Below, piece by piece: positions 5,905 to 31,723 of a stretch of DNA of 37,186 nucleotides (position 1 is the stretch's first letter; the number at the start of each line of letters is the position of its first letter). The stretch is from positions 1-37,186 of the IMG/VR virus record IMGVR_UViG_3300045973_000904, one strand, 5' to 3'. The stretch comes from a virus. Under the pieces are notes generated by a model, which had not been told where the DNA came from, did no database searches, and saw only the letters and a program-made list of their open reading frames with translations. Position numbers and translations under genes: made by a program.

Positions 5905-5920
5905 TGCTTGCGCGTTTAAC

Positions 5921-6037
5921 TGCTACACGACGCTACACGACGCTAAACGTAGCGTTACGTAGCCGCATAGCAATACTGAAATGCTGCTACACGGCTACAC
6001 AACACCCCGTAGGGGTGTGTAGCTGTAGCAGCGTAGC
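5921..6037. other. Iteron cluster with large imperfect hairpin, candidate replication origin
   Basis: In the 211-bp gap after the primase-helicase, GCTACAC occurs at 5922, 5932, 5986 and 5994, and its complement GTGTAGC at 6017. Near copies occur at 5942 (GCTAAAC), 5949 and 5959 (GTAGC), 6024 (TGTAGC) and 6032 (CGTAGC). The segment 5983-6032 can fold into a long bulged stem: GCTGCTACA pairs with TGTAGCAGC, with GCTACAC and GTGTAGC and ACCCC/GGGGT inside. Such direct and inverted iterons beside a P4-alpha-like helicase gene are typical of origins. Recognition by the phage helicase is inference. An AT-richer stretch follows at 6040-6115. Confidence 0.6.
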
Positions 6038-6115
6038 AAGAGATTTAGATTATCCGAACACGTTGATTTTTACGGATGTGCAAATCTTGCGCGTTACCCT
6101 GGAAGATAAATAAAA

Positions 6116-6313
6116 ATGCGAAATTCTGCGCGTTCGATAAAGCTAAGGGGCAACGTAGGCCAGCGTCATCCGAAGGCGAAGTTGTCGGACCGCGAGGTGG
6201 AATTGCTGCGGCACTTGCGTGAGGCCGAGGGCTGGACGTATGGGCAGCTGGCCGAGAAGTTTGAAGAGTCCAAAGCCTACGTCGTGAGGTTGTGCAAATA
6301 CCGGTGTCGTTGA
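6116..6313 (+). CDS. Small HTH protein, 65 aa
   Basis: After a basic N-terminus (RSIKLRGNVGQRHPKAKLSD) the protein has a three-helix homeodomain-like HTH: REVELLRHLREAEGWTYGQL, then AEKFEESKAYVVRLCKYR. Small proteins of this kind often precede terminase genes in phages and may be transcription activators or DNA-packaging partners. It lies between the iteron region and terS. Its stop codon (6311-6313) is directly followed by the late-element GGGGTGTACAAG. An activator of the late elements is an attractive role but not shown. Confidence 0.65.
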   Translation: MRNSARSIKLRGNVGQRHPKAKLSDREVELLRHLREAEGWTYGQLAEKFEESKAYVVRLCKYRCR

Positions 6314-6354
6314 GGGGTGTACAAGGCGAAAAGCGCGGCGCATATCGTGCTTGT
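6314..6354 (+). promoter_or_regulatory. Late-type element, copy 1 (before terS)
   Basis: GGGGTGTACAAGGCG begins right after the TGA of the HTH gene. TGTACA is at 6318-6323, followed by a 17-base spacer and CATATCGTGC at 6341-6350. The TATCGT within it could serve as -10. The terS ATG is 14 bases after the start of CATAT, as in copy 2. Confidence 0.6.
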
Positions 6355-6936
6355 ATGAAATTGACACCTGAAAAGCTGACCGCGTTTTGCGCTGCACTTG
6401 CGGAGACTGCACAAGTCTCGAAGTCGTGCGCTGCGATTGGCATATCTCGACAATGCGCGTACAAGTGGCGCAAGGAAAACCTCGACTTTGCGCTGGCCTG
6501 GGATGAAGCGATGCAAATCGCAGTCAGTGGATTGGAAGACGAAGCGATCCGCAGAGCGCGCGACGGCGTTGACGATCCGGTGATCCACCAAGGGCAGTTC
6601 ACGCCACTCGTTGACTACGACGCGATCGACGAATTGACCGGCGAGAAGTACATCCCGCAACTGGCGCCGGTGCAACGAAACCCCGATGGCACTCCGAAGA
6701 TGGCCACGGTCAAGAAGTACAGCGACACGCTGTTGATCTTCACCCTCAAGGCCCACGCGCCAGCGAAATATCGAGACAACCAAAGCATCGAGCTCACCGG
6801 CAAAGACGGCGGCGCGGTGCAATTCAACGACACCGACAAAGCCGCCCGCATTGCTGCGATCATGGCCATCGCACAGCGCCGTGCCAACGCCGCAGCCGAG
6901 GCACCCGTGCCGGATGACAACTCCGATTTGGTGTGA
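6355..6936 (+). CDS. terS: Terminase small subunit, 193 aa
   Basis: An N-terminal HTH (about residues 15-40: ETAQVSKSCAAIGISRQCAY, then KWRKEN) is of the type that binds packaging sites in phage small terminases. A central region (DEAMQIAVSGLEDEAIRRAR) and a C-terminal part ending near the large subunit's start follow. ATG at 6355 is preferred; the longer reading from GTG at 6292 would overlap the preceding gene and the late-element. No Shine-Dalgarno is visible before 6355, so translation may be leaderless or start at an upstream TTG/GTG. The TGA overlaps the ATG of the large subunit (TGATG). Confidence 0.85.
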   Translation: MKLTPEKLTAFCAALAETAQVSKSCAAIGISRQCAYKWRKENLDFALAWDEAMQIAVSGLEDEAIRRARDGVDDPVIHQGQFTPLVDYDAIDELTGEKYIPQLAPVQRNPDGTPKMATVKKYSDTLLIFTLKAHAPAKYRDNQSIELTGKDGGAVQFNDTDKAARIAAIMAIAQRRANAAAEAPVPDDNSDLV

Positions 6937-8549
6937 TGCAAATCGCAGACGTTAAGAGCGCGCTGCATCACCTGACGATCGACGAACGTGCGGAGCTTGA
7001 CGCTCTGGTGGCCAGCGACACAACGATATGGCGCCCTCTACCTGGTCCGCAGTCACTTGCAGCTGAAAGCCTCGCAGACATCACCGGCTTCGGTGGCGCC
7101 GCTGGTGGGGGCAAGACCGATCTAGCGTGTGGCTTATCGCTGACAGAGCACCGCAAGGTGGCTATCTTTCGCGAGAACGGTACCGAGCTAACCGGTGTGA
7201 TTGACCGATTCACGCAACTCGTTCGGACGCGTGATGGGTATAACGGCCAGGACAAGATATGGCGAACTAAGCGCGGCGACGGTGTACCCGTGCAAATCGA
7301 ATTCGGTAGCTTTCCGAACCCAGGCGACGAAACCAAGTACCAAGGGCGTGACCACGATTTGCTTGTGTTCGACGAGGCGGCCAACATGCGTGAGAGTGCG
7401 GTCCGCTTTCTCATGGGCTGGTTGCGATCAACTGACCCCGCACAGTCACGATGCCGTGCGTTGCTCACGTTCAACCCGCCCACAACCGCAGAGGGCCGGT
7501 GGATCATCCAGTTCTTTGCACCCTGGCTAGACCGCAAGCACCCGAACCCCGCGAAGCCTGGCGAGTTGCGCTACTTCGCGACGATCAGCGAAAAGGACAT
7601 CGAGGTGCCCGATGGCCGCGTGTTCGTGCTGGACGGTGTCGAGCGCTGCTACGACTTCGATCCGTTGCTCTATGAGCCTACCGAGATCATCAAGCCGATG
7701 TCGCGCACCTTCATCCCGTCACGCGTATCGGATAACCCGTACCTCATGGGCACCAACTACGTTTCGGTGCTGCAAGGTTTGCCCGAGCCGCTTCGTTCAC
7801 AGATGCTTAAAGGCGACTTTATGGCCGGTGTGGAGGATGACCCTTGGCAACTCATTCCGACGGCTTGGGTGGAGGCTGCACAAGCGCGTTGGGTGGATTA
7901 CTACCCCAAGCCCTCGATGAACTCGATGGGCGTGGACGTTGCGCGTGGTGGCCGTGACAACACGATCATCGCAAGGCGTCACGGCATGTGGTTCGACAAG
8001 GCTCTCGTGTACCCAGGTGCGCAGACGCCGGACGGCCCAAGCGTTGCCGGTTTGGTGGTGGGCGCCTTGCGTGATGGGGCGCCTATCCACATCGACGTGA
8101 TTGGTGTAGGTGCCAGCCCCTACGACTACCTCAACACCAACGGCCAGCATGTCATTGGCGTGAACGTCAGCGAGAAGGCCACGGCCACGGACCGCAGCGG
8201 GCGCCTTCGGTTTCTCAACCAGCGATCGCAGTATTGGTGGCAAATGCGCGAAGCGCTTGATCCGTCCAACAACGAGGGGATCATGCTGCCGCCGGACCCG
8301 CGACTTCTTGCGGACTTGTGCGCACCGACGTGGTCCGTGACGGCCAGTCGGGTGGAGGTGGAAAGCCGCGAGGCGATTTACAAGCGCATAGGGCGATCAC
8401 CGGATTGGGCTTCGGCGTACATCCTTGCGTTGATCGACACCCCGCCGCTGGACCTGGTGCGACGGATGCAGCGCAGCGGATCGCACAACCCGTTCGCGGG
8501 TGTACAAGGCCGCACCCCGCACTCCTACGATCCCCTGGCGAATCTTTAA
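6936..8549 (+). CDS. terL: Terminase large subunit, 537 aa
   Basis: ATP-driven DNA packaging motor and nuclease. The Walker A is GFGGAAGGGKTD near residues 51-61 and Walker B is LLVFDEA near 144. A C-terminal RNase H-like nuclease begins at MGVDVARGGRDNT, where the aspartate is the first metal ligand. The length is normal for podophage large terminases. ATG at 6936 overlaps the terS stop, which implies coupling. Within its last codons (8498-8530) lies a weaker match to the late-element. Confidence 0.93.
   Translation: MQIADVKSALHHLTIDERAELDALVASDTTIWRPLPGPQSLAAESLADITGFGGAAGGGKTDLACGLSLTEHRKVAIFRENGTELTGVIDRFTQLVRTRDGYNGQDKIWRTKRGDGVPVQIEFGSFPNPGDETKYQGRDHDLLVFDEAANMRESAVRFLMGWLRSTDPAQSRCRALLTFNPPTTAEGRWIIQFFAPWLDRKHPNPAKPGELRYFATISEKDIEVPDGRVFVLDGVERCYDFDPLLYEPTEIIKPMSRTFIPSRVSDNPYLMGTNYVSVLQGLPEPLRSQMLKGDFMAGVEDDPWQLIPTAWVEAAQARWVDYYPKPSMNSMGVDVARGGRDNTIIARRHGMWFDKALVYPGAQTPDGPSVAGLVVGALRDGAPIHIDVIGVGASPYDYLNTNGQHVIGVNVSEKATATDRSGRLRFLNQRSQYWWQMREALDPSNNEGIMLPPDPRLLADLCAPTWSVTASRVEVESREAIYKRIGRSPDWASAYILALIDTPPLDLVRRMQRSGSHNPFAGVQGRTPHSYDPLANL
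8498..8530 (+). promoter_or_regulatory. Possible weak late-type element inside terL
   Basis: GGGTGTACAAGGC is present (TGTACA at 8501-8506), but 17 bases later the sequence is CCTACGATCC, only partly like CATAYNNTGC. It lies in coding sequence before the acetyltransferase gene, so it may be coincidence. Confidence 0.25.
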
Positions 8550-8559
8550 AGGGCGCCAC

Positions 8560-9000
8560 TTGCAACTCGTTAGCTACACCGCAGAGTTATCCGATCAGTT
8601 CCTCACATTGGGCAGAGCCATGCACAAGGAAAGCATTTTTCGTGACGACCCGTGGAGTGACGACAAGGTACGCAAGCTGTTCGAGCACCCCCAAGCGTTT
8701 GCCATGGGGGTGTTGTCTTCCGACGGTGAGCTGGTGGCGATCTTCTTGGGCTTTGTTGCTCCTCAGTTTTTTGGTGATGGCCTAGGAGCCAAAGATTTGG
8801 CTATGTATGTCAAACCTGAGCACCGCGGAGGTATGCACTTCGTGCGACTCGTTCGAGCCTTCGAGCGTTGGGCAAAGCTGCGAGGCGCACGCGTTTGCAC
8901 ATTGGGGCAGAGCACCGGCGTGGCGATGGACCGCACGCGTAAGTTATTTGAGAGGCTGGGGTATATCACCACCGGCTACTCCACTCGTAAAGGAATTTAA
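8560..9000 (+). CDS. GNAT-like N-acetyltransferase, 146 aa
   Basis: The protein shows the GNAT order. Residues near 20-30 (LGRAMHKESIFRDDPWSDDK) correspond to helix 1. ELVAIFLGFVAPQFFG gives strands 2-3, KDLAMYVKPEHRGGMHFVRL is strand 4 plus the acetyl-CoA P-loop region, and CTLGQSTGVAMDRTRKLFER followed by LGYITTGY forms the end of the fold. TTG at 8560 is suggested because AAAGGG lies just upstream and just after the terL stop. A GTG at 8500 inside terL is the alternative. Acetyltransferases sit in the head operon of many podophages; the substrate is unknown. Confidence 0.7.
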   Translation: MQLVSYTAELSDQFLTLGRAMHKESIFRDDPWSDDKVRKLFEHPQAFAMGVLSSDGELVAIFLGFVAPQFFGDGLGAKDLAMYVKPEHRGGMHFVRLVRAFERWAKLRGARVCTLGQSTGVAMDRTRKLFERLGYITTGYSTRKGI

Positions 9001-9001
9001 T

Positions 9002-9769
9002 ATGGGTTGCGGTGGTGGATTTATTGGTGACACTCTGGGCAGCATTGGCGACGCACTCGGGGGCGCAGTGCAGGGCGTGGGTGATGCTGTCAAAAGCGCG
9101 GGCGATGCCGTTGGCGATTTTGCGAGTACGCCATTAGGTAAAGCGGCGATCATCGCCGCGGCAGCCTACGCGACGGGGGGCACGTCTCTTGCAGCGGATG
9201 GAACCGCGATGACTGCCGAAGAGGCAGCAGCAGCGGCCGAAGCCGGTAGTGCTACCACTGCGGGGGCAACTACGGAGGGCATGACTGCCGCCGAAGCATC
9301 TGCCGCGGGGGCTGGCGAGGCGGGTGCAACGGAAGCAGGGGCGGCAGAGTTGTCGCATGTGGTCGACGGGGGAACTGCGGCAGCGGGCACAGCCGCCGAA
9401 AGCACCGTCGCGCCGGTGGAAGCCTCGACAGCAGCAGCCACGGCGGGCAATTCCCTTCTGACCGGCAGCTCCATCGCCGACATGGGTAAGTCTCTGCTAT
9501 CCGCTGCCAACGTATTGGGCGCCGTGAAGCTGGCCGGATCGTTACTCACCCCGCAAGCACCGATCAACCAAACGGCCACACCCACGTCTGCGCCCGAGCC
9601 GGTTCGCACCCAGGTGGCGCAGTCAAGCGGTAACGCGATGCAGGACCTCATGGTCGGCGCTGGCCAAGCTGGCGGCTCCGCAGGGGTAGCGCAAACGCTG
9701 CTCACCGGTGCGAATGGCGTGGACACCAAATCTTTATCGCTTGATAAGCGCACTCTGCTAGGTTCTTAA
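9002..9769 (+). CDS. Ala/Gly-rich virion-associated protein, 255 aa
   Basis: Starts MGCGGGFIGDTLGSIGDALG with ATG at 9002, one base after the preceding stop and eight bases after GGA. Residues 1-40 contain a repeated pattern (GDALGGAVQGVGDAV, GDAVGDFA), followed by a hydrophobic Ala-rich helix (GKAAIIAAAAYATGG). A very long Ala/Thr/Glu/Gly region follows to about 175 and then LLSAANVLGAVKLAGSLLTP. The small-residue composition resembles minor virion or ejection proteins encoded beside portals in related phages. No named family is recognised. The stop TAATG overlaps the portal start. Confidence 0.6.
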   Translation: MGCGGGFIGDTLGSIGDALGGAVQGVGDAVKSAGDAVGDFASTPLGKAAIIAAAAYATGGTSLAADGTAMTAEEAAAAAEAGSATTAGATTEGMTAAEASAAGAGEAGATEAGAAELSHVVDGGTAAAGTAAESTVAPVEASTAAATAGNSLLTGSSIADMGKSLLSAANVLGAVKLAGSLLTPQAPINQTATPTSAPEPVRTQVAQSSGNAMQDLMVGAGQAGGSAGVAQTLLTGANGVDTKSLSLDKRTLLGS

Positions 9770-11463
9770 TGGCTGAAATCACCAAGCGGCAACACATCCT
9801 TATCCGTTGGGGCCAACTCAAGACGGAGCGGGCAAGCTGGTGGAAGCACTGGTCGGAGATTACGCAGTTCATCACTCCACGCCAGGGCCGGTACTTCGTG
9901 CAAGACCGCAACAAGGGCGCACGACGCCACAACAACATTTACGACAGCACCGGATCGCGTGCGCTCAACACCCTGGCCGCTGGCCTCATGGGTGGACTGA
10001 CGAGCCCCGCGCGTCCTTGGTTTCGGTTGGCTACGGCTGACGCGTCGTTGAACAAACAGCCCGCCGTCAAGCAGTGGCTCAATGACTGCACCGAGCTCAT
10101 GCTCACGATCTTTCAGAAGTCGAACACCTACCGCGCGCTGCACAGTATCTACAAAGAGCTTGGTGCGTTTGGCACCGGCGCTGCGGTTATCTCTGCGGAC
10201 TTCGAGAACGTCATCCATATCCATCCGATCACGATCGGCGAGTACGCCGTGGCCACTAACTTCAAGGGGCGAGTGGACACGATCTATCGCGAGTTTGAGT
10301 TGACCGTTGGCCAGCTGGTGCGCGAGTTCGGCATTGAGAATTGTTCGACGAGCACCAAAAGCATGTACGAGCGCGGCACCTTGGACGCGTGGGTCACTGT
10401 GATCCATGCGATCGAGCCGCGACTAGACCGCGACGTAGGCAAAGCGGACACGCTCAACATGCCCTGGTCCGACACCTACATGGAAATCGGCGCCACCGGC
10501 GAACAGTTCTTGCGCGAAGGCGGCTTCGAGAAATTCCCCGCGCTCTGCCCACGGTGGGACGTGGAGGGCGGCGATATCTACGGCAACAGCCCAGGCCAAG
10601 AAGCACTCGGCGATATCAAGCAGCTGCAACACGAACAGCTGCGCAAGTCACAAGCGATTGACTACCAGGTCAACCCGCCACTGCAAGTGCCCACGAGCAT
10701 GAAGAACCGCGAGGTGGAGCGCTTACCTGGCGGCGTCACTTTCGTGGACACGGCTTCGTCGGGTAAGGCTATCCAAACCGCGTTCGATGTGCAGCTGAAT
10801 CTCCAAGAGCTACTTACGGACATTCAAGACGTGAGGGGCCGCATCAACAGCGCGTTTTTTGTGGACTTGTTCATGATGATCTCGCAAGACAACGCAGCCA
10901 CCACACGCATGACGGCCACCGAGGTGGCAGAGCGCCACGAAGAGAAGATGCTCATGCTGGGGCCAGTGCTAGAGCGCTTGCAGGACGAACTACTCGACCC
11001 GCTGATCGAAGTCACCTTTCACATGATGGACAAGGCGGGCATCCTGCCGCCACCACCACCCGAGTTGCAAGGCCAGCAGTTGAGCGTGGAGCTGGTTTCT
11101 ATGCTGGCCCAAGCGCAGCGCGCGGTGGCCACCAACGGCATTGATCGCTTCACCAACGGCTTGACGGCCATGGCGCAGATCAAGCCGGAAGTGCTGGACA
11201 AGTTCGACGCGGACCGATGGGCTGAAGAGTACGGGGACGCGTTGGGCATTAACCCCGATTTAGTGTTGCCCGAAGACCAGGTGCAACAGCTGCGTGCTCA
11301 ACGTGCGCAAGCGCAAGCACAAGCCGCGAAAGCGCAACAAATGAACGTCGCTTCGCAGACTGCCAAGAACCTGGGCGCTACGCCCACCGATGGCGGTAAC
11401 GCGGCCAGTTCAATCATGGATATGTTCTCGCAGGGCTTTGGCGCCGCAGGGGGCGGGCAATGA
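9769..11463 (+). CDS. T7-like portal (head-to-tail connector) protein, 564 aa
   Basis: Dodecameric ring at the packaging vertex. The beginning has the connector pattern: WGQLKTERASWWKHWSEITQ, then PRQGRYF and YDSTGSRALNTLAAGLMGGL, the conserved LAAGLMGGLTSPARPWFRL block near residues 65-90. The middle includes CPRWDVEGGDIYGNSPGQEA. The C-terminal part has TATEVAERHEEKMLMLGPVL, followed by a PP-rich loop and a Gln/Ala coiled tail. Length and motifs fit the phage head-to-tail connecting family. Its ATG overlaps the stop of the previous gene, and its stop overlaps the start of the HNH gene. Confidence 0.93.
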   Translation: MAEITKRQHILIRWGQLKTERASWWKHWSEITQFITPRQGRYFVQDRNKGARRHNNIYDSTGSRALNTLAAGLMGGLTSPARPWFRLATADASLNKQPAVKQWLNDCTELMLTIFQKSNTYRALHSIYKELGAFGTGAAVISADFENVIHIHPITIGEYAVATNFKGRVDTIYREFELTVGQLVREFGIENCSTSTKSMYERGTLDAWVTVIHAIEPRLDRDVGKADTLNMPWSDTYMEIGATGEQFLREGGFEKFPALCPRWDVEGGDIYGNSPGQEALGDIKQLQHEQLRKSQAIDYQVNPPLQVPTSMKNREVERLPGGVTFVDTASSGKAIQTAFDVQLNLQELLTDIQDVRGRINSAFFVDLFMMISQDNAATTRMTATEVAERHEEKMLMLGPVLERLQDELLDPLIEVTFHMMDKAGILPPPPPELQGQQLSVELVSMLAQAQRAVATNGIDRFTNGLTAMAQIKPEVLDKFDADRWAEEYGDALGINPDLVLPEDQVQQLRAQRAQAQAQAAKAQQMNVASQTAKNLGATPTDGGNAASSIMDMFSQGFGAAGGGQ

Positions 11464-12047
11464 AACATTGCACTGTATGCAAACAATTAAAAGAGGATGA
11501 CGCGTTTTACCGCCGTAAAGCAGGAGGGTTGTATTCCTCGTGCAAGAAGTGTGATATCGCAAGGCGTAGTGCTTGGACGTTGAACAACCCCGAGAGAGTG
11601 AGGGCGCAACAAAACACTTGGCGAGTAGCAAATCAGGATCACGTTACCCGTCGTCAAAAGACATCGCGCAAAGCGAACCCCGAAAAATCACGTGCACATG
11701 TTGCGAAGTGGCGGGCGGCGAACACAGACGCGGCCCGCGCTGCGGTATCAGTTTGGCGCAAAGCTAATAAAGCCTACGGCGTTGCTATGCAAAACGCACG
11801 CGAAGCTGCAAAGATAAAGGCAACGCCGAAGTGGGCTGACAAAGCCGCGATATCGGCGATGTATGCCGAAGCGCAAAGGACGGGGATGCAAGTCGATCAC
11901 GTCGTGCCTTTGAGGTCTAAGTGGGTGTGTGGTTTACATACACCTGCGAACCTCCAACTCTTGACCCCTCATGACAACGCCGTAAAAGGCAACCACCACT
12001 GGCCAGACATGCCAATCAAAGGACACACCCATGGTTTTCAACCCTAA
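11460..12047 (+). CDS. HNH endonuclease with zinc ribbon, 195 aa
   Basis: An N-terminal zinc ribbon is visible: CTVCKQLKEDDAFYRRKAGG with a second pair CKKC near residues 24-27. A middle region repeats an N-P-E-x-x-R-A ... W-R-x-A-N motif about four times (28-105), likely a helical DNA-binding stretch. The HNH core is at about 143-185: MQVDHVVPLRSKWVCGLHTP, then ANLQLLTPHDNAVKGNHH, with the catalytic-type DH and the N of ANLQ and final N/H residues present. It overlaps portal by 4 bp and the spike base gene by 17 bp. It is probably a free-standing homing endonuclease; a packaging role as in some HNH-terminase pairs is less likely because it is distant from terL. Confidence 0.85.
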   Translation: MKHCTVCKQLKEDDAFYRRKAGGLYSSCKKCDIARRSAWTLNNPERVRAQQNTWRVANQDHVTRRQKTSRKANPEKSRAHVAKWRAANTDAARAAVSVWRKANKAYGVAMQNAREAAKIKATPKWADKAAISAMYAEAQRTGMQVDHVVPLRSKWVCGLHTPANLQLLTPHDNAVKGNHHWPDMPIKGHTHGFQP

Positions 12048-12315
12048 ATATCCGTTTCTCGACACCACCAACGACTTCACGCCGATCAACGACTTGCGAG
12101 TCGTGGTGCCTAACGACTCCGCAGATTTGCCAAACGGGATCAGCCGCGCAGTTATCTTTACCGGTACCGGCAACATCAAGATCACGACTTCGTTGGGCAC
12201 CACGTTGACGCTGCCGATTTCCGCAAACTGGTTCGGCGTGACGTACCTGCGTATCGCACGGATTTGGGCAACCGGCACCACGATCTCCGCTGGCAATATC
12301 TTCGTGGGGTATTGA
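12031..12315 (+). CDS. Spike base protein-like (RCAP_Rcc01079-type), 94 aa
   Basis: Reads MVFNPKYPFLDTTNDFTPIN, then DLRVVVPNDSADLPNGISRA and VIFTGTGNIKITTSLGTTLT. The PNDSADLP-x-G-x-x-R-A-V-x-x-GxGN pattern and the closing RIxATGTTIxAGNIFVGY match small beta-sandwich virion proteins annotated as spike base or head spike proteins in phages and gene transfer agents. Assignment is by motif memory. The start overlaps the end of the HNH gene by 17 bp, suggesting the HNH gene was inserted just upstream. Confidence 0.6.
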   Translation: MVFNPKYPFLDTTNDFTPINDLRVVVPNDSADLPNGISRAVIFTGTGNIKITTSLGTTLTLPISANWFGVTYLRIARIWATGTTISAGNIFVGY

Positions 12316-12316
12316 C

Positions 12317-12631
12317 ATGATCGACATGAAGATGACCGCCGAAGAAGCGAAAGAGCAGAGCACCAGCTGCGATGTAGAGCGCAACCCGTACCCATACGGA
12401 TTACGCATCAACCTGGACGATGACGCCCTCAAGAAGCTAGGGATCACGACGCTGCCAGCCGTGGGCAGTAAGTTGAATTTCAGCGCCGTGGCAGAGGTGT
12501 GTAGCACCTCCGCTTACCAGGACAACGGAGGCGAAGCAGAGACTTCTATCTCGTTGCAAATCACCGGCATGGAAGTGACCTCCGCAGGTAAATCAAGCGA
12601 CGACGCTGCGACGCTTCTCTACCCCGATTGA
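12317..12631 (+). CDS. Capsid staple-like protein, 104 aa
   Basis: Opens MIDMKMTAEEAKEQSTSCDV and has NPYPYGLRINLDDDALKKLG and ITTLPAVGSKLNFSAVAEVC. The order MKMTxEEAKE, YPYGLxIxLDDxxLxKLG, LPxVG, and a final SLQITGMEV is the pattern of the small capsid staple family that clips neighbouring capsomers. It starts one base after the spike base stop. The late-element copy 2 follows directly after its TGA. Confidence 0.65.
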   Translation: MIDMKMTAEEAKEQSTSCDVERNPYPYGLRINLDDDALKKLGITTLPAVGSKLNFSAVAEVCSTSAYQDNGGEAETSISLQITGMEVTSAGKSSDDAATLLYPD

Positions 12632-12633
12632 TA

Positions 12634-12674
12634 GGGGTGTACAAGACGCGAGGCCCCACGCATACATTGGCCCC
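12634..12674 (+). promoter_or_regulatory. Late-type element, copy 2 (before Bbp19/scaffold/capsid)
   Basis: GGGGTGTACAAGACG begins three bases after the staple gene's TGA. TGTACA is at 12638-12643, followed by a 17-base spacer and CATACATTGG at 12661-12670. TACATT is the best -10 candidate. The next ATG is 14 bases after the start of CATAC, the same as in copy 1. Confidence 0.6.
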
Positions 12675-12977
12675 ATGAGTGATCCGCTTGATACCGAAAC
12701 GAATGACCAGCAACGCAAAGCGCGGGCAGAGATTGCCCACCACGCGAAGCTCAAAGACGTTGAAGATACCAAGTGGCTCATGAGTTCAAAACGGGGTCGG
12801 CGCGTCGTCAATCGCCTTTTGCAGCAAGCGGGTGTCTTTCGTTCATCGTTTCACACCAACGCCCTGCAAATGTCCTTTAACGAAGGCAACCGCAATATAG
12901 GCTTAATGCTGCTTGCGGACATAACCGAAAACTGCCCCGATCGTTATGCAGAAATGATTGAAGAGGCAACACAGTGA
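12675..12977 (+). CDS. Bbp19-like phage protein, 100 aa
   Basis: The core EDTKWLMSSKRGRRVVNRLL, then QQAGVFRSSFHTNALQMSFN and EGNRNIGLMLLADI is the signature of the small Bbp19-like family, first seen in Bordetella phage BPP-1 next to the scaffold and capsid genes. Its function is unknown. ATG at 12675 lacks a Shine-Dalgarno and sits very close to the late-element, so the message may be leaderless. The end overlaps the scaffold gene start (GTGA). Confidence 0.8.
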   Translation: MSDPLDTETNDQQRKARAEIAHHAKLKDVEDTKWLMSSKRGRRVVNRLLQQAGVFRSSFHTNALQMSFNEGNRNIGLMLLADITENCPDRYAEMIEEATQ

Positions 12978-13606
12978 CCACTGAAACTAGCGCACCTGTC
13001 GCGAACACACCAAGTACCGACACGTCCATCGCTTCACCTACACCTGTAGCAACGACACCCGCGCCCGCCGCAGATACACCAGTGGCTCCCGCCGCCGTTG
13101 TGCCCGCAGAGGCGCCACCAACAACCGAAGCACCTAAACCCGAAGCCCCAAAGGCACCGGAGAAATACGACTTCAAAACGCTCGAAGGCCAGGTCGATCA
13201 AGCGGTACTCACCAAGTTCGAGGGCCTAGCCCGTGAAATGGGGATGACGCAAGACCAAGCCACAAAGATGATGAGTCAACTCGCCCCCGAGGTTGCCGCT
13301 GCTCAAAAGGCCAGCATGGACACCGCAGTGGGCAAGTGGGTGGATGCCGCGAAAACGGACAAGGAATTCGGCGGCGACAAGCTGAACGAAAACCTCGCGA
13401 TCGCAAAGACGGCACTTGAGAAATTTGGCACGCCCGCGTTGTCCAAGTTACTCAATGACTCCGGCTTGGGCAACCACCCCGAAATCATCCGCGCCTTCGT
13501 TCGCGCAGGTAAGCAGATTACTCCTGGCAACTTTGTCTCTTCGGGTCAAGGCGCGTCACCAACTGCGAGCGCAGGCTCGAAGTTGTATCCATCAATGAAG
13601 AGTTGA
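12974..13606 (+). CDS. Capsid scaffolding protein, 210 aa
   Basis: GTG start at 12974 overlapping the upstream TGA. The N-terminal 60 residues are a Pro/Ala/Thr-rich disordered arm. Helices follow (about 65-160: FKTLEGQVDQAVLTKFEGLA, EMGMTQDQATKMMSQLAPEV, WVDAAKTDKEFGGDKLNENL). The C-terminal tail ends with basic SAGSKLYPSMKS. Such a disordered, helical, charged-tail protein directly before the major capsid gene is the expected scaffold. The motif WxxxxKxDxExGGxxxxENLxxAKxAL is common among phage scaffolds of this group. Confidence 0.8.
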   Translation: MTTETSAPVANTPSTDTSIASPTPVATTPAPAADTPVAPAAVVPAEAPPTTEAPKPEAPKAPEKYDFKTLEGQVDQAVLTKFEGLAREMGMTQDQATKMMSQLAPEVAAAQKASMDTAVGKWVDAAKTDKEFGGDKLNENLAIAKTALEKFGTPALSKLLNDSGLGNHPEIIRAFVRAGKQITPGNFVSSGQGASPTASAGSKLYPSMKS

Positions 13607-13612
13607 TTTTTT

Positions 13613-13632
13613 CGCCTCACCGCCGCGAGGCG
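13613..13632 (+). other. Hairpin between scaffold and major capsid genes
   Basis: CGCCTC (13613-13618) can pair with GAGGCG (13627-13632) across an 8-base loop. No T-run follows, so it is not a normal terminator. It could trim or stabilise the capsid message. The remaining bases to 13680 hold only the capsid ribosome site (GAAAGG). Confidence 0.35.
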
Positions 13633-13680
13633 TCGGGCACCCACAACGTTCTAACGCAGTGATGCGCTGAAAGGTATCAA

Positions 13681-14688
13681 ATGGCAGTTCTCTCCACTGG
13701 AGCTTTAACCCTGGCCGATTGGGCTAAACGACTCGATCCCGATGGCAAAGTGCCCGTTGTCGCTGAGTTGCTTTCTCAGTCAAACGAAGTTTTGGAAGAC
13801 GCAGTCTTCGCCGAAGGCAACTTAGCCACCGGCCACCGCGTCACGATTCGCACCGGCTTGCCCGCTGTGTACTGGCGTTCGTTGAACCAAGGTGTGCCTT
13901 CTAGCAAATCCACCACGGCGCAAGTCGATGAAGCGTGCGGTATGTTGGAAGCGTACAGCCGAGTCGATAAAGACTTGGCCGATTTGAACGGCAACACCAG
14001 CCAGTTCCGATTGTCCGAAGACAGCGCCTTCTTGGAAGCGATGAACCAGGCACAAGCGCAAACATTGTTCTATGGCAACCCTGCCACGGACGCCCGCCAA
14101 TATCTCGGTTTGGCTACACGCTACGGTGCTATCTCCGGCGCCAGCAACTCGCAAAACATTCTCAACGCTATCGGTACCGCTGGCGCTACGAATACCTCCA
14201 TTTGGTTGGTGGTTTGGGGTGACAACACCGTGTTCTGCCCGTTCCCTAAAGGTTCTAAGGCTGGTCTGAGTCACGAAGATAGTGGCCAGTTGACCGTGTA
14301 CGACGGCAACGGCAACCCTTACCAAGCGTTCCAAACCCACTACCAGTGGAAGAACGGCCTCGTGGTCAAGGATTGGCGTTATGTGGTTCGCATTGCGAAC
14401 ATCAGCGTGACCAACTTGGTAGCGAACTCTTCGCCCGCCGACTTGATCGCTTTGATGTCCCGCGCTTTGGACCGCATCCCTAACTTGGCAGCTGGTCGCG
14501 CAGCGTTCTACATGAACCGCACTGTGTATTCGTTCTTGCGCATCCAAGCCTTGAACAAATCCAACTATGCATTGAGCGTAGAGAAGGGCCTCAACCAATT
14601 CGGCACACCAGGTAACTGGTTGTCGTTCGAGGGTGTGCCACTGCGTCGTGTTGACCAGTTGTTGACCACTGAGACACAAATCAGCTAA
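13681..14688 (+). CDS. Major capsid protein (BPP-1 Bbp17-like), 335 aa
   Basis: The HK97-fold shell subunit. Motifs include LADWAKRLDPDGKVPVVAEL, NEVLEDAVFAEGNLATGHRV, TIRTGLPAVYWRSLNQGVPS, YSRVDKDLADLNGN and LEAMNQAQAQTLFYGN. This pattern characterises the capsid family of Bordetella BPP-1 and related podophages. The length of 335 and its position after the scaffold fit. AAAGG lies upstream of the ATG. No protease gene is visible, so scaffold release rather than cleavage is likely. Confidence 0.92.
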   Translation: MAVLSTGALTLADWAKRLDPDGKVPVVAELLSQSNEVLEDAVFAEGNLATGHRVTIRTGLPAVYWRSLNQGVPSSKSTTAQVDEACGMLEAYSRVDKDLADLNGNTSQFRLSEDSAFLEAMNQAQAQTLFYGNPATDARQYLGLATRYGAISGASNSQNILNAIGTAGATNTSIWLVVWGDNTVFCPFPKGSKAGLSHEDSGQLTVYDGNGNPYQAFQTHYQWKNGLVVKDWRYVVRIANISVTNLVANSSPADLIALMSRALDRIPNLAAGRAAFYMNRTVYSFLRIQALNKSNYALSVEKGLNQFGTPGNWLSFEGVPLRRVDQLLTTETQIS

Positions 14689-14695
14689 CACCCAA

Positions 14696-14878
14696 ATGGC
14701 GAACCCTACTGATAACACTTCAACACCTACGGGGGTGCCCGTGGGCGGTTCCGTGGTGTCGAGTGCGCAACAGCAGCAGTTCGTCGTTTGGTCGGCTCCC
14801 TGGCAAGCACAGCCTTCTGTGAAGCCTTGGGCCACCTACCTCGCGGCCATTCCGGCCAGTGGTCAATCCGTCCAATAA
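14696..14878 (+). CDS. Small hypothetical virion-region protein, 60 aa
   Basis: Reads MANPTDNTSTPTGVPVGGSV, then VSSAQQQQFVVWSAPWQAQP and ends GQSVQ. Thr/Pro/Gln-rich with three tryptophans. It lies 7 bp after the capsid stop and 11 bp before the cement gene. No ribosome site is convincing, but codon usage agrees with its neighbours. No family is recognised. Confidence 0.5.
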   Translation: MANPTDNTSTPTGVPVGGSVVSSAQQQQFVVWSAPWQAQPSVKPWATYLAAIPASGQSVQ

Positions 14879-14889
14879 GGAAGTTCAAA

Positions 14890-15378
14890 ATGATTATCGA
14901 TGCGCTCTTACAACTCTCCGGCAGCGTTGTCGGCAACACAGTCACCGGCCAAACCATCCCTGGCGGCGCGACAACGACCTCTACTAATGTCATCGACCTC
15001 GCCGGCGTAGGTACCGGTAACGGCGCTCGCGACATCGGGATGGGGGAAGACCTGTACGTAGAAATCGCTGTGACCCAAACGTTTTCGATCGGGGCAAGCG
15101 TCACGGTGGCGTTAGTCATGGCTGACGACGCGGCGATCACAACGAACGTTGTGCAGTTATCTGCCAAAGGTCCTATCCTTTCTAACACCTTGACGGCGGG
15201 ATCGCTGGTTACTCTGCGTCTCGAGCGGGCAGCGCCGTTGCCCCCCCATCGCTACCTCGCGTTGCAGTACACCGTCGTAAACGGCCTTTCCTCTGGCGCG
15301 GTGACGGCTTGCATCGTGCGTGATGTCCAAGATAAAGGCAACAACACGATCTTTAACTCTGGCTTCACTGTGGCCTAA
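14890..15378 (+). CDS. Bbp16-like capsid cement protein, 162 aa
   Basis: Starts MIIDALLQLSGSVVGNTVTG after an AGGAAG ribosome site. The family start MIIDALLxxS, followed by VIDLAGVGTGNGARDIGMGE and AAPLPPHRYLALQYTV, is that of Bbp16-like cement proteins. These trimers sit on the shell at threefold axes. The longer reading from 14788 overlaps the small gene before it and is rejected. Together with the staple gene it suggests a doubly reinforced capsid. Confidence 0.8.
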   Translation: MIIDALLQLSGSVVGNTVTGQTIPGGATTTSTNVIDLAGVGTGNGARDIGMGEDLYVEIAVTQTFSIGASVTVALVMADDAAITTNVVQLSAKGPILSNTLTAGSLVTLRLERAAPLPPHRYLALQYTVVNGLSSGAVTACIVRDVQDKGNNTIFNSGFTVA

Positions 15379-15382
15379 CCCC

Positions 15383-15406
15383 GTGGTCAGCCTTCGGGCT
15401 GGCCAC
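15383..15406 (+). other. Stable UUCG-loop hairpin after the cement gene
   Basis: GTGGTCAGCC (15383-15392), loop TTCG and GGCTGGCCAC (15397-15406) form a 10-bp stem with one G-T pair. It is followed by TTACTGG, not a T-run, so it is more likely a message-stabilising or attenuating element than a full terminator. Confidence 0.55.
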
Positions 15407-15424
15407 TTACTGGAAATTTAAAAG

Positions 15425-15775
15425 ATGACACAAGTACGCGCACTTACCCGAATCTTCGCCGAAGGCGTCTTGCACGATGCCGGTTCCGTGTTCGATTACC
15501 CCGACGCCCTAGCCAAGTTGCTCAAAGGCACCCCCGACGAAGGCATGGAGGTGGTCAGTAAAAAGAACACCGCCGCTTTCGATAAGGCCACCGCCGAGGC
15601 GCAAAAAGCACTCGAAGACAACGCTATCGCTTTGCAAGCGCATGCCGATGCACTGCAAGCCGAATTAACCGCCGAGCCTACGCGCGGCGATCTCGTTCAA
15701 AAAGTGCTTGATGCCCAAGCCGCAGCGGTAGACGCCGCGAAGGCCGCAGCCGCCAACGCTGAGTCGTTGGTTTAA
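15425..15775 (+). CDS. Hypothetical phage protein with helical C-terminus, 116 aa
   Basis: Starts MTQVRALTRIFAEGVLHDAG, an all-beta-looking start (VRALTRIFAEGVLHDAGSVFDYP) that recalls small virion-region proteins with this opening. A long Ala/Glu/Lys helix follows, probably a coiled coil (about 48-115). It stands alone between the UUCG hairpin and the terminator at 15795-15822. No family is recognised with confidence. Confidence 0.6.
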   Translation: MTQVRALTRIFAEGVLHDAGSVFDYPDALAKLLKGTPDEGMEVVSKKNTAAFDKATAEAQKALEDNAIALQAHADALQAELTAEPTRGDLVQKVLDAQAAAVDAAKAAAANAESLV

Positions 15776-15794
15776 CTCTTGCAGTTGACTTAAC

Positions 15795-15822
15795 AAGGGG
15801 GCCTCAGTGCCCCCTTCTTTTT
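15795..15822 (+). terminator. Rho-independent terminator between head and tail genes
   Basis: AAGGGGGC-CTCAGT-GCCCCCTT followed by CTTTTT. An 8-bp GC-rich stem and a U-tract make a strong plus-strand terminator. It separates the head block from the tail genes; the late-element is not repeated directly after it, so readthrough or antitermination must feed the tail genes. Confidence 0.88.
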
Positions 15823-15833
15823 AAAGGGTAGTC

Positions 15834-16472
15834 ATGGCCTCCGAAGTAGATATTTCCAATAACGCCCTCGGGTACCTGGGCGATAGCGCAAACGTGGTAT
15901 CGCTTAGTCCCCCGAGTGGCAGCGTCCAAGCGGTTCACTGCGCACGCTTTTACCCGCTGGCGCGTGACGAGTTATTGGAAATGCACCCCTGGGGTTTTGC
16001 CATGCGTCGAAGCCAGCCCGCGCTACTTACCGAAACCGCTCCGACGCCATGGATGTACACGTATGCCGTACCCGCTGGCGCGTTGAACCTTATGTCAATC
16101 ACCGATCCCGATGCGCTAGATGACTACAGCGTCGGCGTCAACAACGTGGGCAACTACACGCCCCAAAACTTTGTCACTGAATCGGACGCCACGGGCGCGC
16201 AAGTGATTTACACGAACCAACAAAACGCGATGCTGCGCTACAGCGTGCGCGTCACCGACACCACGCAGTTCAGTCCCTTGTTCACTGCGGGCTTGACGCG
16301 ACTCTTAGCGTCAAAGCTCGCGGGGCCGGTGCTCAAAGGCGCAGAGGGCAGGGCAGAAGCCAAGGCTCAACTCGCAACCTTCGCTCAGTGGTTCGCGCTG
16401 GCTACGTTGTCGGACGCCAACCAACAACGCACACGCCCTACGCAGCGCGTGGGTTGGATCGCGGCACGTTGA
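15834..16472 (+). CDS. T7 gp11-like tail tubular protein A (adaptor), 212 aa
   Basis: MASEVDISNNALGYLGDSAN with CARFYPLARDELLEMHPWGF and AMRRSQPAL is the typical opening of the gp11-like family, in which a helical ring joins the portal to the nozzle. The end contains LTRLLASKLAGPVLKGAEGR, then AEAKAQLATFAQWF. AAAGGG precedes the ATG at 15834. It is directly followed by the nozzle gene (1-bp gap). Confidence 0.88.
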   Translation: MASEVDISNNALGYLGDSANVVSLSPPSGSVQAVHCARFYPLARDELLEMHPWGFAMRRSQPALLTETAPTPWMYTYAVPAGALNLMSITDPDALDDYSVGVNNVGNYTPQNFVTESDATGAQVIYTNQQNAMLRYSVRVTDTTQFSPLFTAGLTRLLASKLAGPVLKGAEGRAEAKAQLATFAQWFALATLSDANQQRTRPTQRVGWIAAR

Positions 16473-16473
16473 T

Positions 16474-18774
16474 ATGGGTGAGAAATACGTAGACCGCAGC
16501 TTCTCCGGTGGTGAGATTTCGCCGGACATGCTTGGGCGCATTGATATTGCGCGATACCAAACCGGCCTAGCACTGTGCCGCAACGCTTTCGTGTTGCCGC
16601 ACGGCCCCGTCGAGAACCGACCAGGCACCGAGTTCGTTTCCGAAGTCAAGAACAGCGCGAACCCCGCGCGTTTGATCCCCTTCACGTTCAACTTCACGCA
16701 AACCATGGCGATCGAGGTGGGTGCGGGGTATTTCCGTTTTCACAGCCAAGCGGGCACCTTGATGTCCGCAGGCGTGCCCTACGAAGTGGCGAATGGCTAC
16801 TCCGCTGCGGACCTGTTTGATATCCACTACACGCAAAGCGCGGACGTGCTCACGCTGGTGCACCCCAACTACCCCGTGGCCGAGTTGCGACGCCTGGGCG
16901 CTCTATCGTGGACGCTCACGAATCCGAGTTTCGCAGTCCCCACGTATTGCCCCACAAGCGTGGCCGCCACTGTGACCAGCCCACACGCAACAACGTGGAA
17001 CCCGTTTCCCTGCCAATACTGCGTCACCACTGTGCAAGTCACCGACTTGCAAGAGTCTCTCGCGTCCAACGTGACCACTTCGATATCCAACGATTTGACC
17101 CTGGTAGGCAACGTCAACACGATCACCTGGACGCTGCCCTCGGGCGTCACGCCCGTGCGCTTCAACGTCTACAAGTACGTCAACGGGTTGTGGGGCTACA
17201 TCGGCCAAGCGGCTGCCACGGCCACGAGCTTCGTGGACAACAACATCACGCCTAACACCTCACAGACCCCGCCGATCACAGACAGTGGCTTCAACGATGC
17301 GGTGGGCAACTACCCTGGCGCCGTGACGTATTTTCAGCAGCGCCGATGCTTTGCGGGTAGCAACAACAAACCGCAGAACGTGTGGATGACGATGTCCGGC
17401 ACAGAGTCGAACATGACGTACACGCTGCCGGTCCAAGCTCAAAACCGAATCAGCTTCAAGATCGCCGCACGCGAAGCGTCGGGCATCCGTCACATCGTGC
17501 CGGTGGCCAACTTAGTGCTGCTCACCGCGTCAACCGAGTGGCGTGTGACCGCCACGGATGGCTATGCGGTGTGGGCTGGTAACTTGTCCGTGCAGCCGCA
17601 GAGCTACGTGGGTGCCAACAACGTCAACCCGATCGTGGTGGGTAACTCGATTTTGTTTAGTCAGTCCCGTGGTTGCCGCATCCGCGAGATGGTGTTCAGC
17701 TGGCAAACCCAAGCGTACCAAACCAACGACATCAGCGTGGCCGCTTCGCACCTGTTCGATTATCAAAACGTCGTTGATATGACGTTCAGCAAAGCCCCGT
17801 ATCAAATCTTGCACTGTGTATCTAGCAGTGGCCAGCTGGTCAGCATGACCTACGTACCGGAGCAGTCGGTGGCCGCGTGGCATCACCATGATTTCAGCGG
17901 CTTCGTCGAGTCCGTTTGTACGATCACCGAACAACCGGCGGGCACAGTGGCCAGCGAGGACATGCTCTACCTCATCGTCAACCGCGTGATCGGTGGCGTG
18001 ACGCGCCGCTACGTGGAGCGTTTGCACACACGTCGCTTTCAGCTGGCCAGTGATGCGTTCTTCGTGGACAGTGGCGCCGCCAACTTCTTGTCAGGCACCT
18101 ACGCGTGGCAGTCTTCGGCGATCAAGTGCAATATCCCCACGCACGGCTTGACGGCTGGCAACACCAAATACTTCACGTTCAGCAACACCGCGCTGTCCGG
18201 CACCTACACCGTGACCTCCGTAGCCGATGTGGACAACATCGTGTTGACGGCTGCCCACGCTGGCCAAGAAGCCGGTACCGTGGCCATGACGCTCACCTAC
18301 CAAGTCACCACCGTAACGGGCTTAACGTGGCTGGCGGGTATGACGGTCAACATCTTGGCCGATGGGGCACCAGTACCGCAGCAAGTGGTCAGCGCGGGCG
18401 GCGTCGTGACGTTGCCCTATCCGGCCACAAAGGTGATCGTCGGGCTGCCCATTACGTGCCAAGTCCAAACGCTACCCCTAGCGCTAGGCGTGGACACGGG
18501 CTACGGCGAAACCTTGCAAAAGAACGTCAACCAGGTGTTTATGCGTGTGTTCAAGACCGGCGGCATGTACGTCGGGCCGGACGTGAACAACTTGACGTAT
18601 GCGGCCACGCGGGCGAGTACGGACTTGCCGGGTTCGCAGCCCGCGCTAGTTACGGGCATGGTGTCGATCGCGATAGAACCCGATTGGAACTTCGACGGCT
18701 CTGTGTTCATCCAACAAACCGATCCGCTACCGATGACGCTCTGCTCAATCGCGACGGACACCAATGTCCGGTAG
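16474..18774 (+). CDS. T7 gp12-like tail tubular protein B (nozzle), 766 aa
   Basis: The N-terminus (DRSFSGGEISPDMLGRIDIA, RYQTGLALCRNAFVLPHGPV, ENRPGTEF) has the conserved start of the gp12-like nozzle family, whose hexamer closes the tail and binds the fibres. The middle has GAVTYFQQRRCFAGSNNKPQ and a beta-propeller-like body. A stretch at about 540-620 (IKCNIPTHGLTAGNTKYFTF) looks like an inserted beta-sandwich. The late-element copy 3 begins at its TAG stop. Confidence 0.92.
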   Translation: MGEKYVDRSFSGGEISPDMLGRIDIARYQTGLALCRNAFVLPHGPVENRPGTEFVSEVKNSANPARLIPFTFNFTQTMAIEVGAGYFRFHSQAGTLMSAGVPYEVANGYSAADLFDIHYTQSADVLTLVHPNYPVAELRRLGALSWTLTNPSFAVPTYCPTSVAATVTSPHATTWNPFPCQYCVTTVQVTDLQESLASNVTTSISNDLTLVGNVNTITWTLPSGVTPVRFNVYKYVNGLWGYIGQAAATATSFVDNNITPNTSQTPPITDSGFNDAVGNYPGAVTYFQQRRCFAGSNNKPQNVWMTMSGTESNMTYTLPVQAQNRISFKIAAREASGIRHIVPVANLVLLTASTEWRVTATDGYAVWAGNLSVQPQSYVGANNVNPIVVGNSILFSQSRGCRIREMVFSWQTQAYQTNDISVAASHLFDYQNVVDMTFSKAPYQILHCVSSSGQLVSMTYVPEQSVAAWHHHDFSGFVESVCTITEQPAGTVASEDMLYLIVNRVIGGVTRRYVERLHTRRFQLASDAFFVDSGAANFLSGTYAWQSSAIKCNIPTHGLTAGNTKYFTFSNTALSGTYTVTSVADVDNIVLTAAHAGQEAGTVAMTLTYQVTTVTGLTWLAGMTVNILADGAPVPQQVVSAGGVVTLPYPATKVIVGLPITCQVQTLPLALGVDTGYGETLQKNVNQVFMRVFKTGGMYVGPDVNNLTYAATRASTDLPGSQPALVTGMVSIAIEPDWNFDGSVFIQQTDPLPMTLCSIATDTNVR

Positions 18775-18812
18775 GTGTACAAGCCGCCGGTGATCGTGCA
18801 TATCCTGCTATC
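18774..18812 (+). promoter_or_regulatory. Late-type element, copy 3 (before ejection-protein genes)
   Basis: GGTGTACAAGCCG starts on the last base of the nozzle TAG. TGTACA is at 18776-18781, followed by a 17-base spacer and CATATCCTGC at 18799-18808. TATCCT is a possible -10, giving a start near 18813 and a short leader with AAAGGCAGG before the ATG at 18827. This is the only copy with a normal ribosome site downstream. Confidence 0.6.
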
Positions 18813-18826
18813 AACAAAGGCAGGAC

Positions 18827-19357
18827 ATGGCAGACACGGACTTTTTATCGTTACTCACCGGCGCCGGTTCGCTACTTAAAGCCTCCGGCACCGCGGCGGC
18901 TTCGGCGGCGCAGCGCACATCGTTGCAGTACCAGGCTTCGGTAGCGCGCACCAATGCGCTACTCGATCAAACCAAGGCCAGCCTCGCCGATCAAGACGGA
19001 CAAATCGCCGTCCAAAACCTTCAACTCAAGAACGGCCAGACGTTTGGCACGCAGCGCGCAAACCTCGCGGCCAACGGTACGGACCTTGGCCAAGGCTCCG
19101 CGAACGACATTCTGACGAGCACCAAGATCATGGGCCAGCGCGATGCGGACCAGTTGCAAACCAATGCAATGCGCACCGCTTGGGGCTACAAGGTCCAAGC
19201 CGTGAACGACACCAACAACGCCAACGCCCTCGATGCGGCAGCGTCCAGCATCAGCCCTGGCAAAGCCGCAGCCGCGTCGCTGCTTGGCAACGCGACGCAA
19301 GTATCAAGTGCGTGGAACACGTTTAGCAAAGCCACCGACGGCATCACGAACTGGTAA
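18827..19357 (+). CDS. Internal virion (T7 gp14-like) core protein, 176 aa
   Basis: Starts MADTDFLSLLTGAGSLLKAS. Long Ala/Gln-rich amphipathic helix pattern (AAQRTSLQYQASVARTNALL, GQTFGTQRANLAANGTDLGQ, GSANDILTSTKIMGQRDADQ) as in the small ejected core proteins. Their N-terminal hydrophobic stretch helps form the outer-membrane channel in T7. The motif QRANLAANGxDLGQGSANDILxST is typical of the family. It leads a three-gene ejection block. Confidence 0.75.
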   Translation: MADTDFLSLLTGAGSLLKASGTAAASAAQRTSLQYQASVARTNALLDQTKASLADQDGQIAVQNLQLKNGQTFGTQRANLAANGTDLGQGSANDILTSTKIMGQRDADQLQTNAMRTAWGYKVQAVNDTNNANALDAAASSISPGKAAAASLLGNATQVSSAWNTFSKATDGITNW

Positions 19358-19362
19358 AGATA

Positions 19363-28109: not shown

Positions 28110-28136
28110 GGGGTGTACAAGCGCAGCGGGGGGTGT
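28110..28136 (+). promoter_or_regulatory. Late-type element, copy 4, upstream half only
   Basis: GGGGTGTACAAGCGC begins directly after the TGA of the giant gene (TGTACA at 28114-28119), as in copies 1 to 3. Seventeen bases later the sequence is CGGACA, not CATAY; that place is occupied by the left arm of the hairpin at 28133-28169. Confidence 0.4.
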
Positions 28137-28169
28137 CGGACACTTTCTTTAACTTAGAAAGTCCGACAC
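28133..28169 (+). other. 14-bp hairpin abutting the tail-fibre start codon
   Basis: Left arm GTGTCGGAC-(AC)-TTTCT (28133-28148) pairs with AGAAAGTCCGACAC (28156-28169) through 14 base pairs with one two-base bulge and a 7-base loop TTAACTT. The right arm ends on the base before the fibre ATG at 28170 and contains the only purine-rich stretch (AGAAAG) that could be the ribosome site. The gap between the giant gene and the fibre is fully occupied by this hairpin and element copy 4. Confidence 0.85.

Positions 28170-31638: not shown

Positions 31639-31723
<85 letters not shown>

Follow-up and report, generated by a model that had tools for sequence, protein, structure and literature searches.

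A recurrent box and spaced -10 hexamer probably mark the late promoters of BPP-1-related short-tailed phages, with a 65-residue helix-turn-helix protein as candidate activator

Phage T4 MotA, which requires AsiA, binds a box with its centre near -30. Mu C and P2 Ogr each represent a design in which one phage activator serves several late promoters through a shared dyad site upstream of -35, and at lambda PRM the -10 lies six nucleotides (nt) before the ATG, the leaderless cI mRNA is translated from its AUG, and the activator contacts polymerase near -35. The IMG/VR virus record IMGVR_UViG_3300045973_000904 (positions 1-37,186; hereafter the window) carries a BPP-1-like podoviral prophage next to a tRNA-Leu gene and bacterial genes. 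In it, a 10-base-pair (bp) box, GGTGTACAAG, recurs exactly 17 bp upstream of a -10-like hexamer. Comparative sequence data indicate that this element is almost certainly the late promoter of BPP-1-like podoviruses, and that a 65-amino-acid helix-turn-helix (HTH) protein, here called HTH65, whose gene lies immediately before terS, is very probably its cognate activator. In Gram-positive phages, late transcriptional regulators of the RinA/Ltr type, about 130 amino acids long, are likewise encoded upstream of terS and activate the packaging/structure block through a promoter in front of the packaging genes (PMC13123087).

HTH65 would work like RinA/Ltr at promoters laid out like those of T4 MotA, and by sequence it belongs to neither family: Pfam and PHROGs revealed no homology to RinA, ArpU or Ltr and no MotA match, and an AsiA-like partner was not seen, no search having been aimed at one. 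As with RinA/Ltr, its gene directly precedes terS and the late block, in 46 of the 54 loci with enough upstream sequence (detection by hidden Markov model; BPP-1 Bbp27 included); it is shorter, however, and would act through one box at about five scattered promoters. The MotA-like traits are positional, namely a box in place of the -35 element, at about -39 to -30, above a retained host -10; the differences are a box centred near -34.5 and a three-helix HTH. A single activator for several late promoters with a common site recalls Mu C and P2 Ogr, whose folds are different, HTH65 being paired with a single asymmetric box over -35. The parallel with lambda PRM would extend to the -10 six nt before the ATG, the predicted start at the AUG and a candidate activator near -35, here at structural (late) operons and without an upstream dimer operator. 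HTH65 also resembles the C-terminal DNA-binding HTH of HNH homing endonucleases (phrog_6156, phrog_20467; KU310944 protein), from which it differs in its conserved place before terS; the window protein contains no HNH catalytic domain, Pfam returning weak HTH matches only.

Alignment of all GTGTACA occurrences in the window delineates five late-strand copies of the unit: one lies at the terL end, and the others precede terS, bbp19, the ejection genes and the tail fibre gene (Table 1). A preliminary description of this DNA had listed three full copies of TGTACA followed by CATAY, a "weak" copy at 8501 and a "half-copy" at 28114. The three full copies are borne out, as TGTACA-N17-CATA occurs three times where that description placed it, against an average of 0.03 in shuffled sequences, none of which reach three. 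Defined as box, 17 bp and hexamer, the unit is equally complete at the two supposedly partial sites. CATAY gives way to TANNNT, two bases downstream, as the second half, the "CA" before the hexamer not being conserved in relatives; the five window hexamers (TATCGT, TACGAT, TACATT, TATCCT and GACACT) all have A as their second base and T as their sixth. Placement at stop codons holds for the copies at 6316, 12636, 18774 and 28112, just past or overlapping the preceding stop, and fails for that at 8499, which lies inside the terL 3' end. As originally proposed, every copy stands at the first gene of a late block, and none occurs in the early or lysogenic part of the window. A palindromic GTGTAC operator, also suggested at that stage, was rejected on account of the asymmetric boxes of relatives, e.g., GGTGCCCGTA.

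The scan took in approximately 110 BPP-1-like loci, some on viral contigs and others in prophages or isolates, and the element proved to be kept at orthologous junctions despite diverged flanks. Close relatives with diverged DNA bear the box at the same junctions; more distant ones, including BPP-1, bear another box at identical junctions with the same 17-bp spacing. More than 20 box versions exist among the phages, such as GGTGCGCATG in the Caulobacter phages SR18 and Jess A and GGTGCCTATA in the B. bronchiseptica pA prophage, and within one phage the boxes agree. The matrix scan covered five orthologous junctions and yielded 177 non-redundant sites, with a TANNNT -10 at exactly 17 bp in 111 of 159 agreeing sites, counts that are partly circular because the seed of the scoring matrix contained known boxes along with a -10 set at offset 17. 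The scan was therefore repeated with word sharing between junctions as the only criterion for a box and the -10 left unused; offset 17 then accounted for 107 TANNNT cases, and no other offset between 5 and 39 for more than five. Word sharing alone is not evidence, because shifted control windows also share 9-mers (55/87); the spacing peak is. Besides this repeat scan, the unbiased check of spacing came from free-spacing word searches, which, given no box beforehand, recovered it with the same TANNNT offset in many genomes separately. Neither box nor HTH65 match was found in epsilon15, a more distant relative.

These comparative data, with a fixed 17-bp distance to TANNNT at the same five positions, agree with the early suggestion of -10 boxes at a distance of 19 bases from TGTACA and no -35. 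At the boxes within 5800-20000 there is no sigma-70-type match, i.e., no TTGACA-like -35 with a 16-18-bp spacer, and an ordinary sigma-70 promoter was rejected on this ground. The companion suggestion of a phage activator in place of the -35, with an HTH protein as candidate, gains support from helix/box co-variation and from the location of the HTH gene next to terS.

The HTH65 gene lies between an early primase/helicase gene and the late block, which it immediately precedes; 2.6-4.2 kb separate the end of the HTH gene from the portal start. AlphaFold2, run on an alignment from which six rows derived from annotated phage/plasmid records were left out, predicts a three-helix HTH (predicted local distance difference test score, pLDDT, ~95 over the domain) with the recognition helix at residues 53-60. 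No named Pfam or PHROG family matched HTH65 above cut-off, weak generic HTH matches aside, and a fold search likewise returned generic HTH matches only (E >0.2), sigma region 4 and DeoR among them. One relative's HTH65 matches phrog_836 (late transcriptional activator) with E=0.015. The BPP-1 orthologue Bbp27 has so far been annotated only as "endonuclease".

Recognition helix and box vary together. Across 39 distinct helix/box pairs, partial Mantel tests, which do not fully remove phylogeny, gave r=0.28 (p=0.0002) between box and helix distance with portal distance controlled, and r=0.23 (p=0.003) with portal distance and the remainder of the HTH protein both controlled. The top-ranked column pair joins box position 6 to helix column +8 (residue 58 in the window), G going with Asp and C with Lys; the third-ranked joins box position 4 to helix column +7 (residue 57), A going with Gln/Lys. 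Independent tip pairs associate box-4 A with Gln in 4/6 and box-6 G with Asp in 5/8. Two close pairs of phages have switched in concert. The portals of BPP-1 and the pA prophage are 92% identical, and box and helix have both changed: GGTGCCCGTG became GGTGCCTATA at the terL end, bbp19 and fibre and GGTGCCTATG at terS, all within largely similar flanks, and the helix went from AIAKICRYERR to TVRNICRGLQR. Between L077 and L080 (89%), the boxes change together, including a coding copy inside terL (GVRD to SARD), and so does the helix. The candidate-activator idea is well supported computationally by the presence of the HTH gene, the co-variation after phylogeny correction and these concerted changes.

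Some observations weigh against HTH65 as the activator of a shared promoter, beyond the circular matrix counts and the residual phylogeny already mentioned. HTH and box are both present in 43 of the 54 loci with upstream sequence and both absent in four, leaving four with a box and no detected HTH gene and three with an HTH and no box, some of these being truncated or false calls. Some columns outside the helix also correlate with the box. The divergent relative G155 (L070/L071) repeats GGTGCATGAG at late junctions (4489, 7691, 13838 and 22828 in the joined stretch) with a spacing other than 17 bp; HTH65 was not detected in it, and a different activator may operate there. A further counter-reading makes HTH65 a repressor acting at the boxes of late promoters otherwise fired by host sigma-70. 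Small HTH proteins are often repressors and a box across the -35 region would suit one as well, yet the promoters within 5800-20000 have no TTGACA-like -35, the -10 is conserved only at A2 and T6, like that of activator-dependent promoters, and the gene sits where late activators do, after the early primase/helicase and before the late block, which makes repression very improbable.

It is also conceivable, though unlikely, that the promoters are real and something other than HTH65 binds the box, either a host regulator or a different early phage protein, with HTH65 a neighbouring packaging or DNA-binding protein. The HTH65 gene adjoins terS, its product could have a part in packaging, and box distance does correlate with portal distance. 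A fixed host factor leaves unexplained, however, why the box varies between phages and agrees within each; furthermore, the helix/box co-variation persists once the portal and the other parts of HTH65 are controlled, and in each of the two close pairs whose boxes switched, the helix did so as well. That the repeats are mere coding or mosaic relics scarcely deserves credence. This reading draws on the GGT GTA CAA frame, which gives GVQ in all five window copies (GVQ...AY/SD), and on the copy in the terL C-terminus; it was rejected because it is contradicted by relatives, which keep position and spacing with boxes that code for other residues and lie mostly outside coding sequence, and by L077/L080, whose terL-internal box changes with the others.

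For an HTH65-activated late promoter, we infer binding, activation, host sigma use and start sites from what can be read in the genomes: motif, spacing, positions, presence of the protein, co-variation and missing Shine-Dalgarno sequences. Host RNA polymerase with its main sigma factor would recognise the TANNNT hexamer, while HTH65 would occupy the 10-bp box instead of a -35 element and recruit polymerase to the terS/terL, GNAT/portal, Bbp19/scaffold/capsid, ejection and tail fibre blocks. The chances that HTH65 directly replaces the sigma contacts at -35 appear evenly balanced. The recognition helix would evolve along with the lineage-specific box, and all late promoters of one phage would therefore switch specificity together. 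A broader proposal, in which a stand-alone HTH of the homing-endonuclease type serves as a surrogate -35-binding domain of sigma, each lineage has a private promoter code that a few residues would spell out, and the lead transcripts are leaderless or folded such that promoter-started RNA, unlike read-through RNA, is translated well, is put forward tentatively and is somewhat doubtful as a whole.

With +1 assumed 7 nt after the hexamer, the predicted bbp19 start lies 0-2 nt from the ATG in 44 of 50 phages, all 44 of them lacking a Shine-Dalgarno sequence; for terS it falls on the ATG or within 2 nt of it in 14/18, three with a Shine-Dalgarno. Predicted starts this close to the ATG and the near absence of Shine-Dalgarno sequences point to leaderless late mRNAs, and the bbp19 mRNA is likely to be one. 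The terS mRNA would usually be leaderless too, and ejection and fibre transcripts would have short leaders with a Shine-Dalgarno, as the predicted leaders do in 20/21 and 14/16 cases, respectively. In the window, an inverted repeat spans the -10, start site and ribosome-binding site (RBS) of the tail fibre gene. The predicted probability that this RBS is unpaired is 0.64 in the promoter-initiated RNA versus 0.14 in read-through RNA, and the repeat may silence the latter; silencing of this kind has been described for T4 gene e. BPP-1 and the relatives G003, G006, G059 and L006 have similar hairpins at their fibre or ejection promoter. RBS-hiding hairpins are strong in the window and in these four relatives and absent in others, and we rank them as secondary because of this patchy occurrence.

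Table 1. Coordinates in the window of the putative late-promoter elements, the candidate activator gene and the tail fibre inverted repeat
Feature	Position	Strand	Remarks
HTH65 gene, 65-aa helix-turn-helix protein	6116..6313	+	Candidate late activator; BPP-1 Bbp27 orthologue; recognition helix ~residues 53-60
Activator box GGTGTACAAG	6316..6325	+	Before terS
-10-like hexamer TATCGT	6343..6348	+	Predicted +1 ~6355 = A of terS ATG (leaderless)
Activator box GGTGTACAAG	8499..8508	+	Within terL 3' end, before GNAT gene
-10-like hexamer TACGAT	8526..8531	+	Predicted +1 ~8538
Activator box GGTGTACAAG	12636..12645	+	Before bbp19/scaffold/capsid
-10-like hexamer TACATT	12663..12668	+	Predicted +1 12675 = A of bbp19 ATG (leaderless, without Shine-Dalgarno)
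Activator box GGTGTACAAG	18774..18783	+	Before internal virion/ejection genes
-10-like hexamer TATCCT	18801..18806	+	Predicted +1 ~18813; 14-nt leader to ATG 18827
Activator box GGTGTACAAG	28112..28121	+	Before tail fibre gene
-10-like hexamer GACACT	28139..28144	+	Predicted +1 ~28151; 19-nt leader to ATG 28170
Inverted repeat	28131..28169	+	Over -10, start site and RBS of tail fibre gene

Other features of the window were recorded alongside the promoters. Among the late genes, an Endonuclease VII/HNH-like gene (11460-12047) is inserted between portal and the next genes, with no tblastn match there in the first relatives examined; a 2187-amino-acid ejection protein (21546-28109) has LPD22 and PBECR1 (Barnase/EndoU/ColicinE5/D/RelE-like nuclease) domains; and 63-bp tandem repeats (28827-29059) lie within the tail fibre gene, in an Ala/Ser/Thr-rich part. 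In the lysogenic region, the match of a small protein (2220-2657) to Rap1a immunity proteins stays below threshold. At the left end of the record (1-140), a 27-bp unit forms an array 5.2 copies long. At the phage/bacterial gene boundary, a tRNA-Leu (CAG) gene (31639-31723), a likely attachment site, is followed by the bacterial RNase R, YjeF and DAO genes.

BPP-1 is the model phage of diversity-generating retroelements, and the late switch of BPP-1 and its many relatives is undescribed in the papers searchable. The literature searched, subscription papers excepted, held no earlier description of BPP-1 late promoters, of Bbp27, or of a Rauchvirus or epsilon15 counterpart. To conclude, our findings suggest that the element probably marks the late-gene promoters of a large BPP-1-related family of short-tailed phages, with a tiny co-varying DNA-binding protein as their activator, and they would give Bbp27 a function. 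A protein of 60-80 amino acids and a 10-bp asymmetric box, for which nature supplies dozens of helix/box pairs and two recent switches in concert, make a compact system for the evolution of promoter specificity and a source of orthogonal promoter/activator pairs, and the late operons offer a direct test of leaderless translation in phages. Each phage would hold its own "key and lock" for virus assembly, readable straight from genomes.
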